From Telmatospirillum siberiense (GTDB taxonomy: Bacteria; Pseudomonadota; Alphaproteobacteria; Rhodospirillales; Magnetospirillaceae): 64,000 nucleotides of DNA. Made by a program: the position numbers and the translations under genes. The number at the start of each line of letters is the position of its first letter. Position 1 is the first letter of the stretch. The notes under the pieces are model-generated. The model made no database searches. It saw nothing but the letters and a program-made list of their open reading frames with translations, and was not told the origin of the DNA. Below, one piece after another: positions 6,881 through 19,157 of the stretch. The DNA is taken from NCBI RefSeq assembly GCF_002845745.1, contig NZ_PIUM01000011.1, forward strand, positions 62,001 to 126,000. Reading direction: 5' to 3'.

Positions 6881-8200
6881 TCAGGCGACGGTTTTCAGAA
6901 TGTCGGCCAACTGGCCGACCAGGGTGTCGATGTGGTGCCGCTCGATGATCAGCGGCGGCGACAGGGCGATGATGTCGCCGGTGGTGCGGATCAGCAGGCC
7001 CGCCTCGAAGCATTTGACGAAGGCTTCATAGGCACGGGCGCCGACCGCGCCGGGCCGGGATGCCAGTTCGATGCCGGCGACCAGGCCGATGTTGCGGATG
7101 TCGATGACGTTCGGCAGTCCGGCGAGACTGTGCACCGCCGCCTCGAAATAGGGGGCGAGCTCGGCGCCGCGGGTCAGCAGGCCTTCCGCCTCATAGACGT
7201 CGAGGGTGGCGAGCGCGGCGGCGGTGGCCACCGGATGGCCGGAATAGGTATAGCCGTGCAGGAATTCGATGGCGCCTTCCGGCCCGTTCATGAAGACGTC
7301 GTGGATGGCGTCGCTGGCGAAGACGGCGCCCATGGGAATGGTGCCGTTGGTGATGCCCTTGGCCGTGGTCACCAGATCGGGCTGCACGCCGAAATAATTG
7401 ACGGCGAACGGCGTTCCCAGGCGACCGAAGCCGCAGATCACTTCGTCGAAAATCAGCAGGATGCCGTATTTGTCGCAGATCGAGCGCAGCTTCTGCAGAT
7501 AACCCTTCGGCGGGATCAGCACGCCGGTGGAGCCGGCCATCGGTTCGACGATCACCGCGGCGATGGTCGAGGCGTCGTGCAGCGTCACGATGCGTTCCAA
7601 CTCGTCGGCCAGGTGCGCGCCCCATTCCGGTTCGCCCCGGGTGAAGGCGTTGTGTTCCAGGTTATGGGTGTGCGGCAGATGGTCGACGCCCGGCAGCAAC
7701 GGGCCGAAATGCTTGCGGTTATTGGCGATTCCGCCGACCGACAAGCCGCCGAAGCCGACACCGTGATAGCCCCGTTCCCGCCCGATCAGCCGGGTCCGCG
7801 CCCCGTCACCCTTCAGGCGGTGATAGGCGAGCGCGATCTTCAGCGCCGTATCCACCGATTCCGATCCGGAATTGGTGAAAAAGACGTGATTGAGCGGTCC
7901 GGGCATCAATTTGGCGAGTCGCGAGGCCAGTTCGAAAGCCTCGGGATGTCCCATCTGGAAGGTGGGGGCGAAATCCAGCTCCGCCACCTTGGTCTGAACC
8001 GCCTTGGTGATCGCCTCGCGGCAATGCCCGGCATTGACGCACCACAGCCCGGCGGTTCCGTCCAGGACCTGATGGCCGTCGGCGGCGGTGTAATGCATGT
8101 CCTTGGCGCTGGCCAGCAGGCGCGGTTTGGCCTTGAACTGGCGGTTGGCGGTAAAAGGCATCCAGAAGGCGCCGAGATCGGACGGGTAATTGTCGAGCAT
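6881..8200 (-). CDS. Omega-amino acid:pyruvate aminotransferase (class III, PLP)
   Basis: Class III aminotransferase of 439 residues. It moves the amino group of an omega-amino acid, probably beta-alanine, to pyruvate and yields malonate semialdehyde for the downstream dehydrogenase. The PLP lysine is K281 in TTAKGITNG, the cofactor-binding aspartate is D252 in IFDEVICGFGR, and YHG (145-147) stacks on the cofactor. The N-terminus LGAFWMPFTANRQF is very typical of beta-alanine:pyruvate transaminases. The ATG at 8200 has a GAGGTG ribosome site; the reading to 8266 adds 22 atypical residues. First gene of the operon, divergent from the XRE-cupin regulator. Confidence 0.9.
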   Translation of the reverse strand: MLDNYPSDLGAFWMPFTANRQFKAKPRLLASAKDMHYTAADGHQVLDGTAGLWCVNAGHCREAITKAVQTKVAELDFAPTFQMGHPEAFELASRLAKLMPGPLNHVFFTNSGSESVDTALKIALAYHRLKGDGARTRLIGRERGYHGVGFGGLSVGGIANNRKHFGPLLPGVDHLPHTHNLEHNAFTRGEPEWGAHLADELERIVTLHDASTIAAVIVEPMAGSTGVLIPPKGYLQKLRSICDKYGILLIFDEVICGFGRLGTPFAVNYFGVQPDLVTTAKGITNGTIPMGAVFASDAIHDVFMNGPEGAIEFLHGYTYSGHPVATAAALATLDVYEAEGLLTRGAELAPYFEAAVHSLAGLPNVIDIRNIGLVAGIELASRPGAVGARAYEAFVKCFEAGLLIRTTGDIIALSPPLIIERHHIDTLVGQLADILKTVA

Positions 8201-8357
8201 TGCGGTAACACCTCGAATGGGAAGCGGAGCGGCATTCAGGGTCGGATGTTTGCCGATCTTTAACAAGACGCTTTCTTGCCTTGCCTCAATCGCTTGATTT
8301 TCCTCATTAAGAGTGAAAAATGTTAACTATCCTGAACAATGGAAACGGAAGGCCATC
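8201..8357. promoter_or_regulatory. Divergent promoter region of aminotransferase operon and regulator
   Basis: This 157-base gap must carry the promoters for both directions. An inverted repeat CAAGA-N5-TCTTG lies at 8264-8278 and an A+T-rich stretch follows at 8290-8335. The inverted repeat is a plausible operator for the adjacent XRE-cupin protein, but nothing in the sequence proves this. Confidence 0.4.
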
Positions 8358-8906
8358 ATGGATATCGATGTCGGAGCCCGGCTGAAAGCGGTTCGCCAGC
8401 GTCTGCATTTGTCCCAACGCGAACTCGCCCGGCGCGCCGGGATCACCAACGCCAGCATTTCCCTGATCGAGTCCAACCGGCTCAATCCGTCGGTGGGGGC
8501 CTTGAAGCGTGTCCTTGATGGCATCCCCATGGGGCTGGCGGAATTCTTCGCCATGGAGATGGAGACTCCGCCCCAGGTATTCTATGGATCCGCCGATTTC
8601 GTCGAGATCGTCAGTGGCGACATTTCCTATCGCCAGGTCGGGCGGGATCTGACGGGGCGCGCCCTGCAGATCATGTTGGAGCGCTATGTCGCCGGGGCGG
8701 ACACCGGACGCGTTCCGCTCAGCCATGACGGCGAGGAGGGCGGCGTGGTGATCGCCGGCCGGCTCGAGGTCACGGTCGGCGACCAGATGCGTGTCCTCGG
8801 GCCGGGCGAGGCCTACTATTTTCACAGCCGGACGCCGCATCGCTTCCGAAACGTCGGCCGCGAGGATTGCCGCGTCATCAGTGCCTGTACGCCGCCCAGC
8901 TTCTGA
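8358..8906 (+). CDS. XRE-cupin transcriptional regulator, PuuR-like
   Basis: A 182-residue regulator with an N-terminal helix-turn-helix (residues 6-60; LSQRELARRAGITNASISLI is the HTH core) and a C-terminal cupin domain (about 105-180; GPGEAYYFHSRTPHRFRN is the conserved cupin strand). PuuR-type proteins of this length repress polyamine or amino acid breakdown genes and sense a small ligand through the cupin. The ATG at 8358 has GGAAACGGAAGG just upstream; the longer reading to 8313 lacks one. Its position back to back with the aminotransferase-dehydrogenase operon makes it the likely regulator of that operon. Confidence 0.88.
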   Translation: MDIDVGARLKAVRQRLHLSQRELARRAGITNASISLIESNRLNPSVGALKRVLDGIPMGLAEFFAMEMETPPQVFYGSADFVEIVSGDISYRQVGRDLTGRALQIMLERYVAGADTGRVPLSHDGEEGGVVIAGRLEVTVGDQMRVLGPGEAYYFHSRTPHRFRNVGREDCRVISACTPPSF

Positions 8907-9021: not shown

Positions 9022-9402
9022 GTGCTTGCGCGCTTGGGTTGTCGTGTGGTCGTGGCTTTGGCGGCGTTTCGGTTTTTCGCCGTCGGGGCGACCGCTCAGG
9101 CGCAGGTCAATGATCCGCTGATCTATTATCAGGTTCTTTATCTGTCGTTCCTGGAACGGACCGCCTGTGGCGACGATGTGAAGGACTGGCGGGATAATCT
9201 TCGGACCATCCGCGACATTCTCGTCGTCGATATGGGACGCCGGGACCAGGATCTGTCGGCGATCGAAGGCCGCGCCGCCGACCTGCAGCGGGAAATGCCC
9301 TGCGACAGTGATACCCGGCGGGATCTTCTGGCGGTGACCACGGGCGAGCCGAGGCGTGCCCTGGCCTGGTTCGGGACCTTGAAAACCGTTCAGACCCCTT
9401 GA
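9022..9402 (+). CDS. Small exported protein, paralogue 1
   Basis: A 126-residue protein of unrecognised family. Residues 1-27 form a signal peptide ending in the Ala-rich ATAQAQ segment, so it is probably periplasmic. The mature part begins DPLIYYQVLYLSFLER and has two cysteines (ERTACGDD, EMPCDSDT) that could form a disulfide. The rest is a charged, probably helical stretch. The start is a GTG at 9022; no earlier start keeps the signal peptide. A clear paralogue lies at 11060-11440 with the same mature length and both cysteines. A transglutaminase-like protease lipoprotein lies between them. Function unknown. Confidence 0.75.
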   Translation: MLARLGCRVVVALAAFRFFAVGATAQAQVNDPLIYYQVLYLSFLERTACGDDVKDWRDNLRTIRDILVVDMGRRDQDLSAIEGRAADLQREMPCDSDTRRDLLAVTTGEPRRALAWFGTLKTVQTP

Positions 9403-10007
9403 TCGTCGATTAAAGCGGCCGCCTGGCGGAAGAAATGCGGTAAGGCTCCCCCGTGATTTCCCCCTTGCACTTCCCAGACCTTTAGACGGACGCGTATCGG
9501 TGGCATTGAACTCCGCGTCGGTTTGGGGCTCGTGACACCCCTCTTTTGACCTTCCCGCCCCCTGACGCAAATTTTTTTTTTGAGACCTCTTTCGGTGGTC
9601 TCCGTGGCGATCCCTCGCACACCCTTCGATTCCGTTGCAATCGTCATTATTGCCACCGGCCCTCCCGGCCGTTGCGATTGCGGCTGCCTGAATCCTGAAA
9701 AATCATTTTGTCGCAATGACTTGGTGCTGCCCACCGAGAGGGGGCGGCGCAATCGGAAAGAGAAAAGCCAAGCAGAAGCTGTAACGGCATTAATAACAAA
9801 TAATATTGCATTTTATCTAAATTTGATACAAAGAGTAAATGATTGTATTTGCTCTAATTTCTCTGCATAAAATCGCTTGACGTTAATAGTCTCCGCTATA
9901 TTTTACCTACCAAGGAATGGTTCTTGGGGCGCGGCAGGCAATCTTCTCTCGGTTTAGTTGGGGTAATTGCTCTTCTCGCCGATAACTCGCAGTACGGAGA
10001 CTTTGCG
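9403..10007. other. Long intergenic region upstream of protease gene
   Basis: About 600 bases without a supported gene. There is a run of ten T at about 9570 with no clear hairpin before it. The section 9780-9900 is strongly A+T-rich compared with its surroundings and leads into a promoter-like sequence. No small gene with convincing codon use was found on either strand. Confidence 0.5.
9877..9904 (+). promoter_or_regulatory. Candidate sigma-70 promoter of protease lipoprotein gene
   Basis: TTGACG at 9877-9882 matches a -35 box. TATTTT at 9899-9904, 16 bases downstream, is an acceptable -10 box. It lies about 100 bases upstream of the chosen GTG at 10008. Call rests on consensus only. Confidence 0.4.
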
Positions 10008-10655
10008 GTGGCTAATCACTCTTCTGCTCTGACGTCTGCTTCGGTGATCGGCAAGGCTATCGTCGCCCTGGCTGGGGCGCTGTTTCTCTCGGCTTGCGCC
10101 GGTGGTCCGCTGCCGGCTTCAAGCCAAATCCCGGGTGGTGTCGTCAGCAACACGCTGCCGGCGGGTTACGCCCAGTTCTGCGGCCGTCACCAGGAGCTCT
10201 GCACGCTGCCGGCGCAAGCGACGACGGCGCAGGCCGTGGTGCCGATGACCGCCGAGACGGAAAAGCAGTTGAGCCAGGTGAATGTCAGCATCAACCGGGC
10301 GATCCGCCCGATGGCCGACGCCGGGAAGGCGGGCTACTGGGAACCGGCCAGCGCCGGCGATTGCAAGACCTACACCGTGCGCAAGATGCAGGCCCTGCTG
10401 GCCCTCGGTCTGCCGCGCGAGGCGCTGCACGTCGCCATCGTCCGGACCCCGCAGGCCGAGAGCCATGCCGTGCTGACCGTCGATACCGACCGTGGAACCT
10501 ATGTTCTGGACAACATGTCCGACGAGTTGCAGCCCTGGGAAAAACTGCCCTACACCTTCTGGTCGCGTGAAGCGGCCCCCGGCCAGCAGTGGAGCTTCCC
10601 GGCGCTGGACGGCAAGGGACGGATCGCCTCCATCGTCGATAAGTCCCAATCCTGA
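10008..10655 (+). CDS. Transglutaminase-like cysteine protease lipoprotein (BTLCP/LapG-like)
   Basis: A 215-residue protein with the bacterial transglutaminase-like cysteine protease fold. The triad is visible: C119 in AGDCKTYTVRKM, H153 in AESHAVL and D168 in YVLDN. The N-terminus is a lipoprotein signal (LSACAGG, lipid-linked C30), so it is probably membrane-anchored in the periplasm. The GTG at 10008 follows ACGGAG at good distance and gives a clean signal peptide; the longer reading to 9924 does not. LapG members of this superfamily release large adhesins under cyclic di-GMP control, but no LapA or LapD partner is in this window, so the substrate is open. Flanked by two paralogous small exported protein genes. 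Confidence 0.85.
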   Translation: MANHSSALTSASVIGKAIVALAGALFLSACAGGPLPASSQIPGGVVSNTLPAGYAQFCGRHQELCTLPAQATTAQAVVPMTAETEKQLSQVNVSINRAIRPMADAGKAGYWEPASAGDCKTYTVRKMQALLALGLPREALHVAIVRTPQAESHAVLTVDTDRGTYVLDNMSDELQPWEKLPYTFWSREAAPGQQWSFPALDGKGRIASIVDKSQS

Positions 10656-10687
10656 ACGTGACGCCGGCCGTCTGACGGCCGCGAAGG

Positions 10688-10718
10688 AAAAACCCCGGCT
10701 TTGGACCGGGGTTTTTTT
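10688..10718 (+). terminator. Rho-independent terminator after protease lipoprotein gene
   Basis: A CCCCGG stem (10693-10698) pairs with CCGGGG (10706-10711) around a seven-base loop and is followed by seven T. It lies 33 bases after the protease stop codon. The preceding A-run can extend the stem, so it may act in both directions. Confidence 0.9.
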
Positions 10719-10794
10719 GTCTGTGTCTTGTTCGGGCGTTGATATCCCGCCTTCGGTAAAACAAGGTGCACCGGCCTCTGTGCCCGTAGGCTAA

Positions 10795-10912
10795 GCCCTC
10801 TCCCACTTCGTGGGCGAGGGGACCTCCGAACCGACCGTTTTCATCCCCGCTGGCGCATCGACCGCGTCGATGCAGGGTGTCTCTCCCGCAAAGCGGGCGA
10901 GGGGAGATTAGC
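10795..10912. repeat. Palindromic intergenic repeat, CCCTCTCCC type, copy 1
   Basis: Two hairpins built on CCCTCTCCCACTTCGTGGG and CTCTCCCGCAAAGCGGGCGA, each followed by GAGGGG. A longer relative lies at 60590-60775. Short G+C-rich repeats with this wording occur between genes in many proteobacteria (general knowledge). No coding capacity. Confidence 0.6.
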
Positions 10913-10984
10913 GCCAAAACGCCCCTTTCCGCTTCGTGCCGGCATGCCGCCCAGGGGCGCCGATGCCATCGGCTTGGGCTATTG

Positions 10985-11022
10985 GCGTGAAAGGCGTTGG
11001 CTTTTTCGCTTATGACGCGATT
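10985..11022 (+). repeat. Upstream repeat copy 2 (in front of small exported protein gene)
   Basis: Second copy of the segment at 8945-8982, with changes only at a few positions. The distance to the downstream gene start is conserved to within two bases (40 against 38). This supports a shared regulatory role or a recent duplication. Confidence 0.8.
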
Positions 11023-11059
11023 AGAGTAGGGCCTTGGCGGGCGGAATGGGGACGGTGAC

Positions 11060-11440
11060 GTGGGGCGGAACCGGTTATGCTGGGTGATGGGCTGGTTGTT
11101 GGCCTGGCGTTTGGTGATCCCGGATTCTTTCGCCCAGACGCCGGTCCGTGATCCCCTGGTCTATTATCAAATCCTCTATCTGTCCTTCCTCGAACGTTCC
11201 GCCTGCGGTGACGATGTCCGGGGCTGGCTGGACGGTCTGCGCACGATCCGCGACATCCTCTCATCCGATCTCGGTCGCAGCGAACGTGACCTGGCGGCGA
11301 TCGAATCCCGGGCCGCCGACTTGCAGCGGGGGGTGCCCTGCGACAGCGATACCCGGCGCGATCTTCTGTCGGTGACCGCGGGCGAGCCCCAACGCGCCCT
11401 GACGTGGTTCCGGACTCAGAAAAGCCCCCGAATACCGTGA
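11060..11440 (+). CDS. Small exported protein, paralogue 2
   Basis: A 126-residue exported protein. The N-terminal 25 residues form a signal peptide ending at SFAQ. The mature part closely repeats paralogue 1 (9022-9402): DPLVYYQILYLSFLER, the two cysteines in RSACGDD and GVPCDSDT, and a shared DTRRDLLxVTxGEP end. It starts with GTG, like paralogue 1. DNA similarity is high in the coding part and in the upstream repeat, while the sequence between differs, which fits a duplication with selection on the mature protein. Family unrecognised; function unknown. Confidence 0.75.
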   Translation: MGRNRLCWVMGWLLAWRLVIPDSFAQTPVRDPLVYYQILYLSFLERSACGDDVRGWLDGLRTIRDILSSDLGRSERDLAAIESRAADLQRGVPCDSDTRRDLLSVTAGEPQRALTWFRTQKSPRIP

Positions 11441-11945: not shown

Positions 11946-12551
11946 ATGGCACGCAATGCAATGAGCAACCTGTTGGTGGGTGCGGCATTCAGCCTGGTAC
12001 TCACCACGTCCGGTATCGTAATGGCGCAGGATGCCGCTCCGGCATTGTCTCCGGCGCTTACGGCCAGCATTCAGGCGGCCACCTCGGCAGGGACTCCGGC
12101 CGAGGTGGCCACCGCCGTGGCGGCACTGGTGGCGGAAAATCCGGGACAGGCCGCGGCTATCGCCGGCGCGGCGGCCGCTGCGGATCCTGCCGCTGCCGCC
12201 CAGATCGCCGCGGCGGTCGCCCTGGCCGTTCCTTCGTCCGCGGCCTCGATCGCGGCCGCGGTCGCCCAAGCGGTGCCGGCCCAGGCCGGTTTGATAGCGG
12301 CGGTGGTGGCGCAGGCGGTGCCCTCTTCCGCGGCGGCGGTGATCGCGGCGGTCGCTACCGCGACGAACACGTCGGTGGCCTCGGTGACGGCTGCGGCATC
12401 CGCAGCCAACGCAACGGCCTCGACCGTGGTTGCCCAGGCGGTCGCGACCTCGTCGGTTGCCCAGGTGACGACCACCCCGGTGAACGCGACGACTGTGACG
12501 CCTTTGGCGCAAGCTGTCTTGAACAACGCTCCGCCCGCCAGTCCGCACTAA
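11946..12551 (+). CDS. Exported Ala/Val-rich protein with 15-residue repeats
   Basis: A 201-residue protein with a signal peptide (residues 1-28, cleavage near MAQDA). Prolines at 51, 66, 81, 96, 111 and 126 mark exactly periodic 15-residue units such as PSSAASIAAAVAQAV and PAQAGLIAAVVAQAV, with a hydrophobic residue at position 6 or 7 of each unit. From about 141 the units degrade into a Thr/Ser/Val-rich tail ending NNAPPASPH. It has no cysteine after the signal peptide and almost no charge. It stands first in the plus-strand series that leads to the outer-membrane barrel, Wza and Wzc genes, so a role in polysaccharide secretion or the matrix is possible. No known family was recognised. Confidence 0.8.
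   Translation: MARNAMSNLLVGAAFSLVLTTSGIVMAQDAAPALSPALTASIQAATSAGTPAEVATAVAALVAENPGQAAAIAGAAAAADPAAAAQIAAAVALAVPSSAASIAAAVAQAVPAQAGLIAAVVAQAVPSSAAAVIAAVATATNTSVASVTAAASAANATASTVVAQAVATSSVAQVTTTPVNATTVTPLAQAVLNNAPPASPH
12096..12365 (+). repeat. Six 45-base repeat units encoding Pro-punctuated helices
   Basis: Six tandem units in the Ala-rich exported protein gene, each encoding 15 residues beginning (or nearly so) with Pro. Period is exact at the protein level and degenerate at the DNA level, so the array is old or kept by selection on the protein. Confidence 0.8.
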
Positions 12552-12654
12552 GGCTGCCGGCTTTTTTGTCTGTACTGAGAACACGATAAAACGCCACGCG
12601 CATTTCCGCTTGGTGTCTGGTTGAATGCCTAATTTAATTTGGGGGCGGTTGAAG

Positions 12655-13938
12655 ATGAGACTCATTGGTATTGGGGTCGCCGCGGCGATCGCGGTCGTTT
12701 TGCCTGTCGAATTTGCCAATGCTCAAGTAAAGGCCGGGCTGGAAGCCCCCGAAGCGACGACACCGGAGCGGCAAAGCGTATTGCAGCGCGCCCGTCCGGA
12801 CTACGATCCGCTGGGCGTTCGTGCGGGATCCTTCATCATCTTGCCGTCGGTGGACGTGGAGGAGGCTTATAACTCCAACGTCTATGTCACACCGAACAAT
12901 ACGAAGGAAGATTTCGAGACGGTGCTTCGTCCGGCCGTTGCGGTCAATTCGGACTGGAACAACCACGCCTTGAGCTTTTTGGCGAATGGCACCATCAAGC
13001 GCTTCGCCAAGGAAGTCAGTGAAAACAACAGCGACGCCGGCGCTTTCGTCAATGGACGTTACGATATCGAGCGTGACGTCTATTTCACCGGAGCGTTGAG
13101 CTATCAGCTATTGCACGAGGACCGGTCTTCGCCGGATGCCGTCACCACTCAGAAAAGTCCCATCGAATATCAGCAGGGAAGCGCTAAATTCGGTTTCGTC
13201 CGGGAACCCGGCCGGCTGGGCTTCCGTCTTGACGCCGGGGCGGATACCTATGCCTACGGCAATGGCGTGACCAGTACCGGCACGCGCATTATTGAGACCG
13301 ATCGCAATTACACCTCCTATACCATCACACCGCGTGTTCGTTACGAGATCACGCCCGGATATCATGCCTTCGTCAAGGCGTCGTACAACGATCGCGTCTA
13401 TGTGAACACTCCCGATACCTCGGGGTACAACCGGAATTCGACGGGTTATGCGGTTGATGCCGGTACGGCGGTGGACCTTGGTCGTGTCCTGACCGGTGAG
13501 GTCTATGTCGGCTATTTGAGCCAGGATTATGACGACAGCCGTTTGAAGTCGGCGAGCGGGGCCGACTATGGCGCCAGCCTTCTGTGGAACGTGACGCAGA
13601 TTACGTCGCTTCGTCTGTCCGCGCAGCGCACTGTCGAGGAAACGACGCTGGCTTCCACATCGGGTTATTTACAGACGACGGTGTCGCCGTCGATTGAACA
13701 TGAGTTGATGCGGAACCTGTTGCTGAACGCCGGGTTCAGTTACGTCCTCCAGGAGTTTCAGGGTTCAAGCCCGTCGCGGACAGACGATATCTACAAGACT
13801 GATGCCGGTCTGCGCTATCTGATCAACCGGAACATGTCGGTGGGGTTGACGGGATCTTATGGATGGCGGCGGTCGAACGCGCTGAACACCAATTACGACC
13901 AGGATATCGTGTTGGCGCGGTTGCGCTTGCAACTCTAG
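12655..13938 (+). CDS. Outer-membrane beta-barrel protein of polysaccharide locus
   Basis: A 427-residue exported protein. The ATG at 12655 gives a good signal peptide (MRLIGIGVAAAIAVVLPVEF, cleaved near ANAQ). The mature part is rich in alternating aromatic and polar strands and ends with LARLRLQL, fitting an outer-membrane barrel of the BBP2 type (putative beta-barrel porin 2), a family often coded with alphaproteobacterial exopolysaccharide genes. It lies 26 bases before the Wza-like gene and probably acts with it as an export or anchoring protein. An earlier ATG at 12625 would add ten residues ahead of the signal peptide. Confidence 0.82.
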   Translation: MRLIGIGVAAAIAVVLPVEFANAQVKAGLEAPEATTPERQSVLQRARPDYDPLGVRAGSFIILPSVDVEEAYNSNVYVTPNNTKEDFETVLRPAVAVNSDWNNHALSFLANGTIKRFAKEVSENNSDAGAFVNGRYDIERDVYFTGALSYQLLHEDRSSPDAVTTQKSPIEYQQGSAKFGFVREPGRLGFRLDAGADTYAYGNGVTSTGTRIIETDRNYTSYTITPRVRYEITPGYHAFVKASYNDRVYVNTPDTSGYNRNSTGYAVDAGTAVDLGRVLTGEVYVGYLSQDYDDSRLKSASGADYGASLLWNVTQITSLRLSAQRTVEETTLASTSGYLQTTVSPSIEHELMRNLLLNAGFSYVLQEFQGSSPSRTDDIYKTDAGLRYLINRNMSVGLTGSYGWRRSNALNTNYDQDIVLARLRLQL

Positions 13939-13964: not shown

Positions 13965-14534
13965 ATGGGAATGCTATCAGGATTGTATGCGTCGGTACGT
14001 CGCTTTTCACTGTTGTTGCTTGTCGTGGTGATTGCTTCTTTGTTGTTGGGTGGGCAGTCCATGGCCGACGACAAGGTCGCCTACCGGTTGGGTACCGGTG
14101 ACAAGGTTCGGGTGACCGTTTTCAATGAGGCGGACCTATCCGGGGACTTCGACGTCAACGACCAGGGGGCTGTTGCACTGCCGTTGGTCGGTCAGGTCGA
14201 CGCGGTGGGGAAGACCGTTGCTGAATTTCAGGCGGAAATCGCACAGAAATACGGTGCAACTTATCTGGTCAATCCACGGGTCAGCGTTGCGGTGTTGAAC
14301 TATCGTCCCTTTTTCATTTTGGGCGAGGTCAAAACTCCTGCAAGCTATCCTTATGTCAACGGCATGACGGTGATCAACGCTATTGCTTTGGCAGGTGGCT
14401 ATACGCCGCGCGCCAACAAACAAAACATCGTTATCAAGCGGGCCAATGACCCATCGGCGACCGAACAAACGGTCAACGAGGATGCTCCGGTCCTGCCGGG
14501 AGACGTAATCCGCGTACCGGAACGATTTTTTTAA
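13965..14534 (+). CDS. Polysaccharide export protein, Wza-like
   Basis: A 189-residue periplasmic or outer-membrane export protein. A signal peptide covers residues 1-34. Then comes the Poly_export domain (YRLGTGDKVRVTVFNEADLS, 40-120) and a SLBB-type beta-grasp region (FFILGEVKTPASYPYVNGM, about 115-175). It is shorter than E. coli Wza (about 380 residues) and has no lipobox cysteine, as in many alphaproteobacterial versions that carry one SLBB domain. It would form the periplasmic or outer-membrane exit channel that works with the tyrosine autokinase coded next. Confidence 0.92.
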   Translation: MGMLSGLYASVRRFSLLLLVVVIASLLLGGQSMADDKVAYRLGTGDKVRVTVFNEADLSGDFDVNDQGAVALPLVGQVDAVGKTVAEFQAEIAQKYGATYLVNPRVSVAVLNYRPFFILGEVKTPASYPYVNGMTVINAIALAGGYTPRANKQNIVIKRANDPSATEQTVNEDAPVLPGDVIRVPERFF

Positions 14535-17711: not shown

Positions 17712-19157
17712 TCACTCACGGGGTTTGTTTTCGGCGCCCTCCTGCGAGGAGCGCGATTGCGCCACCGCCACGCCGAGAAGAGCCATATAGGTCGTGGTAA
17801 CCGCTGGAATCTGCAGGCTGAAATCAACACTGGCATGCAGGGCAACCAGAATCGAGGCGGCGATACCGAGACAAGGGTAAACTCCGTCACGCTGGCGGGT
17901 TCGCATGCCGCGAACGCATAATCCAACCAACCAGAGAATGGCGAAGAACAGGCTGGCTGCCGCCGGAACGCCCAGTTCGAGGATATTTTGCAGGTAATCG
18001 TTGTGGGTCAGGTCGAAGAAGCTGGTGACGGCTTCGGTTCGGTAGAGAGGGAAAAAACTGGTGAAGGAGCCCAATCCGATCCCCAGAACAGGGTAGTCTT
18101 GGATCACCTGCCAGGTCAGTTGATAAACGGTCAGGCGTTCTTCATTTCCCAGCGTGGTCTCCATGAGACGACCCAGGGTCGTTCCTCCGCTGATCAGGAA
18201 AGCCAGGACCACCAGAACGACCGGTAGCGCCACCAGTCCCATATTGCGGAATCGACCAAGGCTGGGCGCTTGAGACAGCATGACGAAGAAGGTTAAGGCT
18301 GCGACCAGTGAGGAGAGAAAGCCCCCACGGGAGTGGGTGAGGACCAGGGCTGTCGCCAGCGAGAATAGAGACAATATAAGCCAGGATTGTCCGCCCAGGT
18401 ACTCAATGATGAGGTGCGCTTTGTCGCGCGAGGTCCCATAGAGACGAAGGCGGCTGAAACTCTTGACAAGATGACTAAGGGCGGCAAGAAGGCAGAGGCC
18501 GAGAAATGTGGCGAAAGAGTTCCTGTTGACGAAGGTTCCCGTCAAATCTTCCATGTAGGCCCATTTTGAAAGCCACAGGACTGTTTCATTGCCGGACCAA
18601 TAGGCGAGCAGTCCGTAGGCGGCATATGCCCCACCAGAGAATGCCACCACTTTGATGGATGTGCTGGCGCGGTCCCGATCGCGGCCGAACAGGAAGGTCA
18701 GAAAAAAAACTCCTGCATAGGTGAGAAGACGGAGTAGGCCTGACAGGGCGGCTTGCCTGTCCACGGCGATGGTGCCGGCGACATGTTTGCCCAAGGTTTC
18801 GGAGGCCTGGTCCCACAAGGGATTGTCCCAGACGGTGGGAACCATGGTGCTGATCTGGACGATGACGACGCAAATCACGAGGCCGAAGGCCAGGGCGGGC
18901 GGCGTCAGGTCCCTGCTGAAAATACCAAGCTTGCGGGGCCAGTAGCCGAGGCTTCCCATCAGCAACGTCGCGACGCAGAGGCCAAGAATATCCCAGGCCA
19001 GCGGACGGCCGGATCCCAGCGGCAAGGGCGCCAGTACGATAACGGCCGAAATGCCGATGAAGATCATCCTTTCCGCCTGGGCGGCGTTCTCCCGCCGAGG
19101 AAGCCTGAGCTGGCTCCCAAGAGGCGTCGTGTCGTTTTCGGCCGCCGTGTCTCGCAT
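17712..19157 (-). CDS. O-antigen ligase / polysaccharide polymerase family membrane protein
   Basis: A 481-residue inner-membrane protein with about 11-12 hydrophobic helices and one long periplasmic loop (about 335-385). The Wzy_C/WaaL family markers are visible: SRGG near 280 and the loop ending in THNDYLQNILELGVPAA. Such proteins either polymerise repeat units or attach finished chains to a carrier. A second polymerase-like protein lies at 33044-34615, so this one may do a different step, such as ligation. First gene of the minus-strand part of the locus; the next upstream gene (GT9, 19288-20550) reads the same way with a 130-base gap. Confidence 0.85.
   Translation of the reverse strand: MRDTAAENDTTPLGSQLRLPRRENAAQAERMIFIGISAVIVLAPLPLGSGRPLAWDILGLCVATLLMGSLGYWPRKLGIFSRDLTPPALAFGLVICVVIVQISTMVPTVWDNPLWDQASETLGKHVAGTIAVDRQAALSGLLRLLTYAGVFFLTFLFGRDRDRASTSIKVVAFSGGAYAAYGLLAYWSGNETVLWLSKWAYMEDLTGTFVNRNSFATFLGLCLLAALSHLVKSFSRLRLYGTSRDKAHLIIEYLGGQSWLILSLFSLATALVLTHSRGGFLSSLVAALTFFVMLSQAPSLGRFRNMGLVALPVVLVVLAFLISGGTTLGRLMETTLGNEERLTVYQLTWQVIQDYPVLGIGLGSFTSFFPLYRTEAVTSFFDLTHNDYLQNILELGVPAAASLFFAILWLVGLCVRGMRTRQRDGVYPCLGIAASILVALHASVDFSLQIPAVTTTYMALLGVAVAQSRSSQEGAENKPRE

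Follow-up and report, generated by a model that had tools for sequence, protein, structure and literature searches.

An alanine-rich protein with a 15-residue repeat at the head of an export locus points to a widespread, undescribed family linked to polysaccharide-export operons

We analysed a 64,000-nucleotide window from Telmatospirillum siberiense (contig NZ_PIUM01000011.1) and found that the protein encoded at the head of its polysaccharide-export locus very probably belongs to a widespread, unnamed and undescribed family of exported 15-residue helical-repeat proteins linked to export operons. The family, and the four-gene envelope module in which it stands together with a BBP2_2 porin, a short class-3-like OPX protein and Wzz, are both well supported by our data, and the repeat protein is probably an undescribed part of slime-polysaccharide export or of the retention of this polysaccharide at the cell surface. 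The literature that we searched, outside most subscription journals and preprints, held no description of the repeat, of its unit sequence or of an EPS-linked alanine-rich protein, and we provisionally regard the family as new. The features discussed below are collected in Table 1.

Table 1. The repeat gene, its parts and the export genes that follow it (window positions; residues are those of the repeat protein)
Position	Strand	Feature	Basis
11946..12551	+	Alanine-rich 15-residue-repeat protein of 201 aa, evidently exported; its gene opens the export module	No Pfam/NCBIfam match
11946..12029	+	Signal peptide of Sec type (residues 1-28), probably cleaved after ...VMAQ	Read from sequence
12030..12095	+	N-terminal cap, residues 29-50, ALSPALTASIQAATSAGT, also in relatives without the period	Alignments, profile comparison; modelled helix 36-46
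12096..12365	+	Six exact 15-residue units, residues 51-140	Period statistics; model helices
12366..12473	+	Degenerate continuation without proline, residues 141-176	Modelled helices 144-154 and 156-176
12474..12548	+	Low-confidence tail ending ...PPASPH	Counterpart of the relatives' Gly/Ser linker and ASPN/ASAN/TAS end
12625..13938	+	EpsL-like beta-barrel porin of the outer membrane (BBP2_2); 12655 is its probable start	PF10082 E=5e-111; TIGR03014/03016 below cut-off
13965..14534	+	Short OPX protein, 189 aa, Poly_export and SLBB only, class-3 type	PF02563, PF10531/PF22461
14694..17003	+	Wzz / BY-kinase co-polymerase (PCP-2)	PF02706, TIGR01007
17000..17683	+	Small TPR-like protein	PF14559 E=2e-4, below cut-off; phmmer match in L018, near Thalassospira locus
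17712..19157	-	Wzy_C / O-antigen-ligase-like protein	PF04932 E=6e-21

A first-pass annotation of this DNA had described six prolines spaced exactly 15 residues apart in an exported, almost uncharged protein encoded at the head of polysaccharide-export genes, and all of this was borne out, the genes for BBP2_2, OPX and Wzz following directly. Prolines stand at residues 32, 36, 51, 66, 81, 96, 111, 126, 178, 186, 196, 197 and 200, and the exact series runs from residue 36 to residue 126, which adds a seventh member to the six reported. When the 13 prolines were placed at random, none of 200,000 placements gave at least six at spacing 15, and only 5 of 50,000 did so at any spacing from 5 to 35. 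Residue identity at lag 15 is 0.37 versus 0.20 +/- 0.027 in shuffles (z = 6.4), a peak equalled only at lags 30 and 45. The clean units (PAEVATAVAALVAEN, PGQAAAIAGAAAAAD, PAAAAQIAAAVALAV, PSSAASIAAAVAQAV, PAQAGLIAAVVAQAV and PSSAAAVIAAVATAT) follow the consensus P-x-x-A-A-x-I-A-A-A-V-A-x-A-x. Their DNA copies have diverged to 55% identity, Tandem Repeats Finder detected no 45-bp array in the gene, and identical residues use the same codon across units about as often as chance would have it (47 observed versus 39 expected from codon usage), so that the period is kept at the protein level and not by recent DNA duplication. The protein is 37% alanine, contains two D, two E, one R and no K, lacks W, Y and C, and counts 37 Ser/Thr among its 201 residues. 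We take it to be exported because it has an evident Sec signal (...VMAQ|D). The antisense open reading frames that overlap the gene mirror its composition and were disregarded.

Structure prediction, which the first-pass annotation suggested as a check for a regular helical solenoid or hairpin stack, returned a series of consecutive helices. AlphaFold2 run without an alignment placed helices at residues 51-64, 66-79, 81-94, 96-109, 111-124 and 126-139, with one residue between each; given 17 family sequences it returned the same six at pLDDT 94-97 and a pTM of 0.71, values to be read with the caveat that AlphaFold2 can be over-confident on Ala-rich repeats, and added two further helices after them. 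A foldseek search of the model against the PDB and viral models gave no significant match; the best PDB matches, all insignificant (E>1, TM<=0.32), include TPR structures and designed helical repeats. We hold with moderate confidence that the predicted fold is a helical stack with one 14-residue helix per unit and turns of about one residue. Such a single-helix unit may be a natural building block for helical-repeat design.

Finding relatives called for an unusual route. The window protein matches no Pfam or NCBIfam family at E<=1 and has no PDB relative, and neither a protein search for relatives nor tblastn against plasmids gave a useful one. Low complexity explains why domain libraries miss the gene and why sequence searches fail, since low-complexity filtering hides the sequence. 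The single match, in G014, was rejected as a frame within a hydrogenase-maturation cluster. We therefore scanned one genome per species with a degenerate DNA pattern of three units that is blind to genomic context. The first pattern was too loose and also caught other Pro-Ala-rich repeats, which were filtered out by translation and served as controls. After translation, the scan retained at least about 20 exported proteins with P-x-x-A-A-x-I units. Among the matches listed, the family occurs in Thalassospira, Mariprofundus, Sulfuritalea, Gallionella, Stutzerimonas, Pseudomonas and Oceanimonas, in Methylococcaceae MAGs, in a Rhodospirillales MAG and in several Verrucomicrobiota, and thus spans Alpha-, Beta-, Gamma- and Zetaproteobacteria as well as Verrucomicrobiota. 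None of the eight relatives compared with Pfam/NCBIfam has a plausible family there. The window protein has every trait that defines the family (signal peptide, N-cap, 15-residue P..AA.I units, proximity to BBP2_2/OPX), and the number of units varies among relatives from about 2 to 12. A profile comparison joins the alphaproteobacterial and pseudomonad groups over signal, cap and units (probability 97%, E = 2e-11), a score that compositional bias may inflate.

Units of 15 residues were also seen in other forms. In another family of the host's order, the slot before BBP2_2 is occupied by an exported protein with two NP-type 15-residue units (L178, 10204-11376, - strand), after which comes a different helical repeat with Gly runs (DLVKDIVAAAVESATDSGGGG). 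Two Pelagibacteraceae giants of more than 2000 aa, open in their loci, carry more acidic NP/AP units of 15 residues (L082, 1795-7998; L127, 1-6624).

Among the matches listed, 11 of 19 family loci contain polysaccharide-export genes (homologues of the window BBP2_2, OPX, Wzz or Wzy-like protein), as against 1 of the 97 loci that the scan supplied as controls (Fisher P = 1e-9). By whole-genome positions, an OPX gene lies within 6 kb, demonstrably on the same contig, in 13 of the 19 family loci listed, and probably in 15. In 149 Pseudomonadaceae genomes the pattern gave 16 matches, 14 of them real members; in all 14 the repeat gene stands directly before the BBP2_2 gene, and every retrieved stretch that is long enough shows OPX and Wzz coming next. 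The order repeat protein, BBP2_2, OPX, Wzz is common to the window, a Methylococcaceae MAG (L113) and Pseudomonadaceae, and two Thalassospira loci (L163, L165) keep the first three genes and have Wzz upstream. A further locus of the Thalassospira group (L164) encodes two 15-residue-repeat proteins on either side of BBP2_2 (7643-8578 and 10032-11078), the second with a Gly-rich N-terminal part. In the reverse direction, from the porin, the link is weaker: we found a member or a degenerate relative at 17 of 30 pseudomonad BBP2_2 loci, and of 31 mostly Rhodospirillales-side BBP2_2 loci, three encode proteins with the 15-residue period and another four Ala-rich relatives that lack it. Absence from the other 13 pseudomonad loci and from most of the Rhodospirillales-side ones indicates that the repeat protein is not an essential core part. 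By eye, the Pseudomonadaceae BBP2_2 loci without it (L253-L258, L262) mostly have an RfaH/NusG-type antiterminator-like gene just upstream instead.

The exact period does not define the family. Ala-rich homologues that have lost it, the case that was to count against the original idea, do exist: family and genus mates of the host (G004, of the same genus, and G021, G029 and G440) encode, at comparable loci, exported Ala-rich proteins without a strict period. These nevertheless keep the N-cap (ALPPALxAAxxSGN...) and the C-terminal tail, and by profile they resemble the window group moderately (76%, E = 2e-5), while the more distant members from Thalassospira, Pseudomonadaceae and Methylococcaceae keep the period. 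The objection thus holds in part: the period is common in the family but not obligatory, and operon linkage and tail describe the family better. Of the 41 members collected, 31 carry an ASPN-like tail end, and relatives without the period are among them; as the regular expression was fitted after seeing the sequences, in a sample of related members, this conservation is a strong lead and not a test. Most pseudomonad and some Methylococcaceae proteins end in ASPN, those of Thalassospira in ASPT/GSPT, the window protein in ASPH, that of G004 in SSAN, and those of G021, G029 and G440 in TAS; many members also have a Gly/Ser linker before this end.

Several known systems resemble parts of this module. 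In the publications on E. coli gfcABCDE-etp-etk and yjbEFGH (PMC8592465, PMC11494523, PMC8117528), GfcA/YjbE is, as in the window, a small exported low-complexity protein encoded by the first gene of an operon that also has an outer-membrane beta-barrel gene and, in gfc, OPX and Wzz-kinase. GfcA is there a Thr-rich (30%) protein of 101 aa and unknown function, with no 15-residue helical units described. Membership in GfcA/YjbE was rejected, with no Pfam/NCBIfam match at E<=1 for the window protein and no plausible one for eight relatives, and so was a GfcA-type operon, as the neighbours are BBP2_2, OPX, Wzz and a TPR-like protein, with no GfcB/GfcC family among them. A PEP-CTERM/exosortase substrate was likewise rejected, the tail (...NNAPPASPH) being without PEP motif, transmembrane helix or basic end.

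Synthase-dependent export relies on TPR scaffolds, namely AlgK and the TPR parts of PgaA, PelB and BcsC. These pair a helical-repeat protein with an outer-membrane beta-barrel for polysaccharide export, as the window may do, but TPR is built of 34-residue hairpins and the window protein of 15-residue single-helix units; the latter is moreover Ala-rich, uncharged, without lipobox and in a Wzx/Wzy-type OPX setting. Its repeat is not the two-helix one of 34-36 residues that marks TPR/SEL1 solenoids, and no TPR profile matches it. The window also has the pair of short OPX and separate porin that is typical of class 3 OPX/beta-barrel translocons (PMC9603273, PMC9601211). The window OPX has neither a Wza_C nor a GfcC domain and adjoins a separate porin gene (PF10082), the two features that define class 3 OPX in PMC9603273. 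Our searches of both papers found no mention of a repeat protein in such systems.

What could the protein do there? Our best explanation, tentative and held at somewhat less than even odds, is that it serves the OPX/beta-barrel machine as an accessory, in the form of a helical rod or tether held by its tail. The protein would be exported by Sec and fold as a rod or solenoid built from 14-residue helices, one to each 15-residue unit and each starting with proline; the number of units would set its length. Its flexible tail, ending in the short conserved peptide (ASPN-type; ASPH in the window), may dock on a partner from the module, the best candidate being the porin encoded by the adjacent gene, which would place the protein at the porin/OPX machine. 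There the rod could act as spacer, scaffold or tether between machine and polysaccharide, as TPR solenoids do in synthase-type export. That only some loci have it speaks for an accessory rather than a core component. Counting against this explanation, the mature part has no aromatics and almost no charge, unlike known sugar-binding solenoids. Nearly as likely is a secreted matrix or surface-anchor protein, the possibility closest to the original idea, that would accompany the polysaccharide out of the cell, either by way of the porin or next to it, and stiffen the matrix or anchor it to the surface, with the tail as export or attachment signal. Unit number that varies between species, low-complexity composition, patchy presence, a Sec signal that has no lipobox, and the tail and Gly/Ser linkers that members share all fit such a protein, although it has no known matrix or adhesin domain in Pfam/NCBIfam and the strict slot directly before the porin gene exceeds what a mere matrix protein would need.

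A carrier role has been proposed for GfcA, the Thr-rich protein encoded in the group 4 capsule operon of E. coli (PMC8592465). By analogy, Ser/Thr of the units and tail could be glycosylated, possibly by the neighbouring Wzy_C/ligase-like enzyme, and the polysaccharide displayed on the protein. The Ser/Thr content, unit types such as AITTAAVTAAP elsewhere, Wzy_C genes near several members and a slot identical to that of gfcA/yjbE speak for this, but Thr/Ser positions vary among the window's own units and no Pfam match to such a family appears at E<=1, which makes it improbable. The part of the first-pass annotation's guess that stands is an exported, regular helical-repeat protein of an undescribed family tied to EPS export genes; the notions of a surfactant and of a lone matrix protein found no support. 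A free protein of the surface-active or ice-binding type with no relation to the export machine, to which Ala-rich helices and a near absence of charge would be suited, is very unlikely given the strong operon linkage, the conservation of the tail across classes and the lack of a regular Thr/Ala ice-binding face. Least credible of all is a functionless compositional accident of a GC-rich gene. GC-rich codons do favour Ala and Pro, and mirror ORFs lie on the opposite strand; yet proteins from other classes and phyla, encoded at loci of this type, retain the period, the units do not share codons, the reversed-pattern controls of two pattern searches gave few matches, and conserved synteny and tail contradict it.

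For polysaccharides of Wzx/Wzy pathways with a short OPX, passage through the outer membrane and retention on the cell are still an open question, and the proposal of a composite OPX/porin translocon reportedly dates only from 2022. The conserved extra gene of the module is a directly testable scaffold or anchor candidate. More speculatively, and with a rather low chance of being right, the ASPN-type peptide behind its Gly/Ser linker might be a dedicated address recognised by the OPX/beta-barrel translocon. A small non-repetitive exported protein at another BBP2_2 locus (L269, 9645-10001, - strand) ends GGPVASAS, like the adjoining repeat-protein member. If the idea were true, the address would mark client proteins for docking to the translocon or export through it, among them variable-length rods and one or more small proteins unrelated to these, and the tail would be a protein-targeting signal tied to polysaccharide secretion.

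Some minor observations deserve mention. One genome listed under the same genus (G003) measures 0.9 Mb at 100% completeness, versus 5.7-7.1 Mb for its mates, and is possibly a reduced symbiont or a misassignment. In the window, two paralogous 126-aa exported proteins without Pfam match (DPLIYYQVLYLSFLER... CDSDTRRDLL...; 9022-9402 and 11060-11440) flank a cysteine-proteinase gene just upstream of the repeat gene. This proteinase gene (9924-10655), a near neighbour of the EPS locus, encodes a Peptidase_C93 (BTLCP, to which LapG-type cysteine proteinases belong), and a link to surface-protein release is possible.
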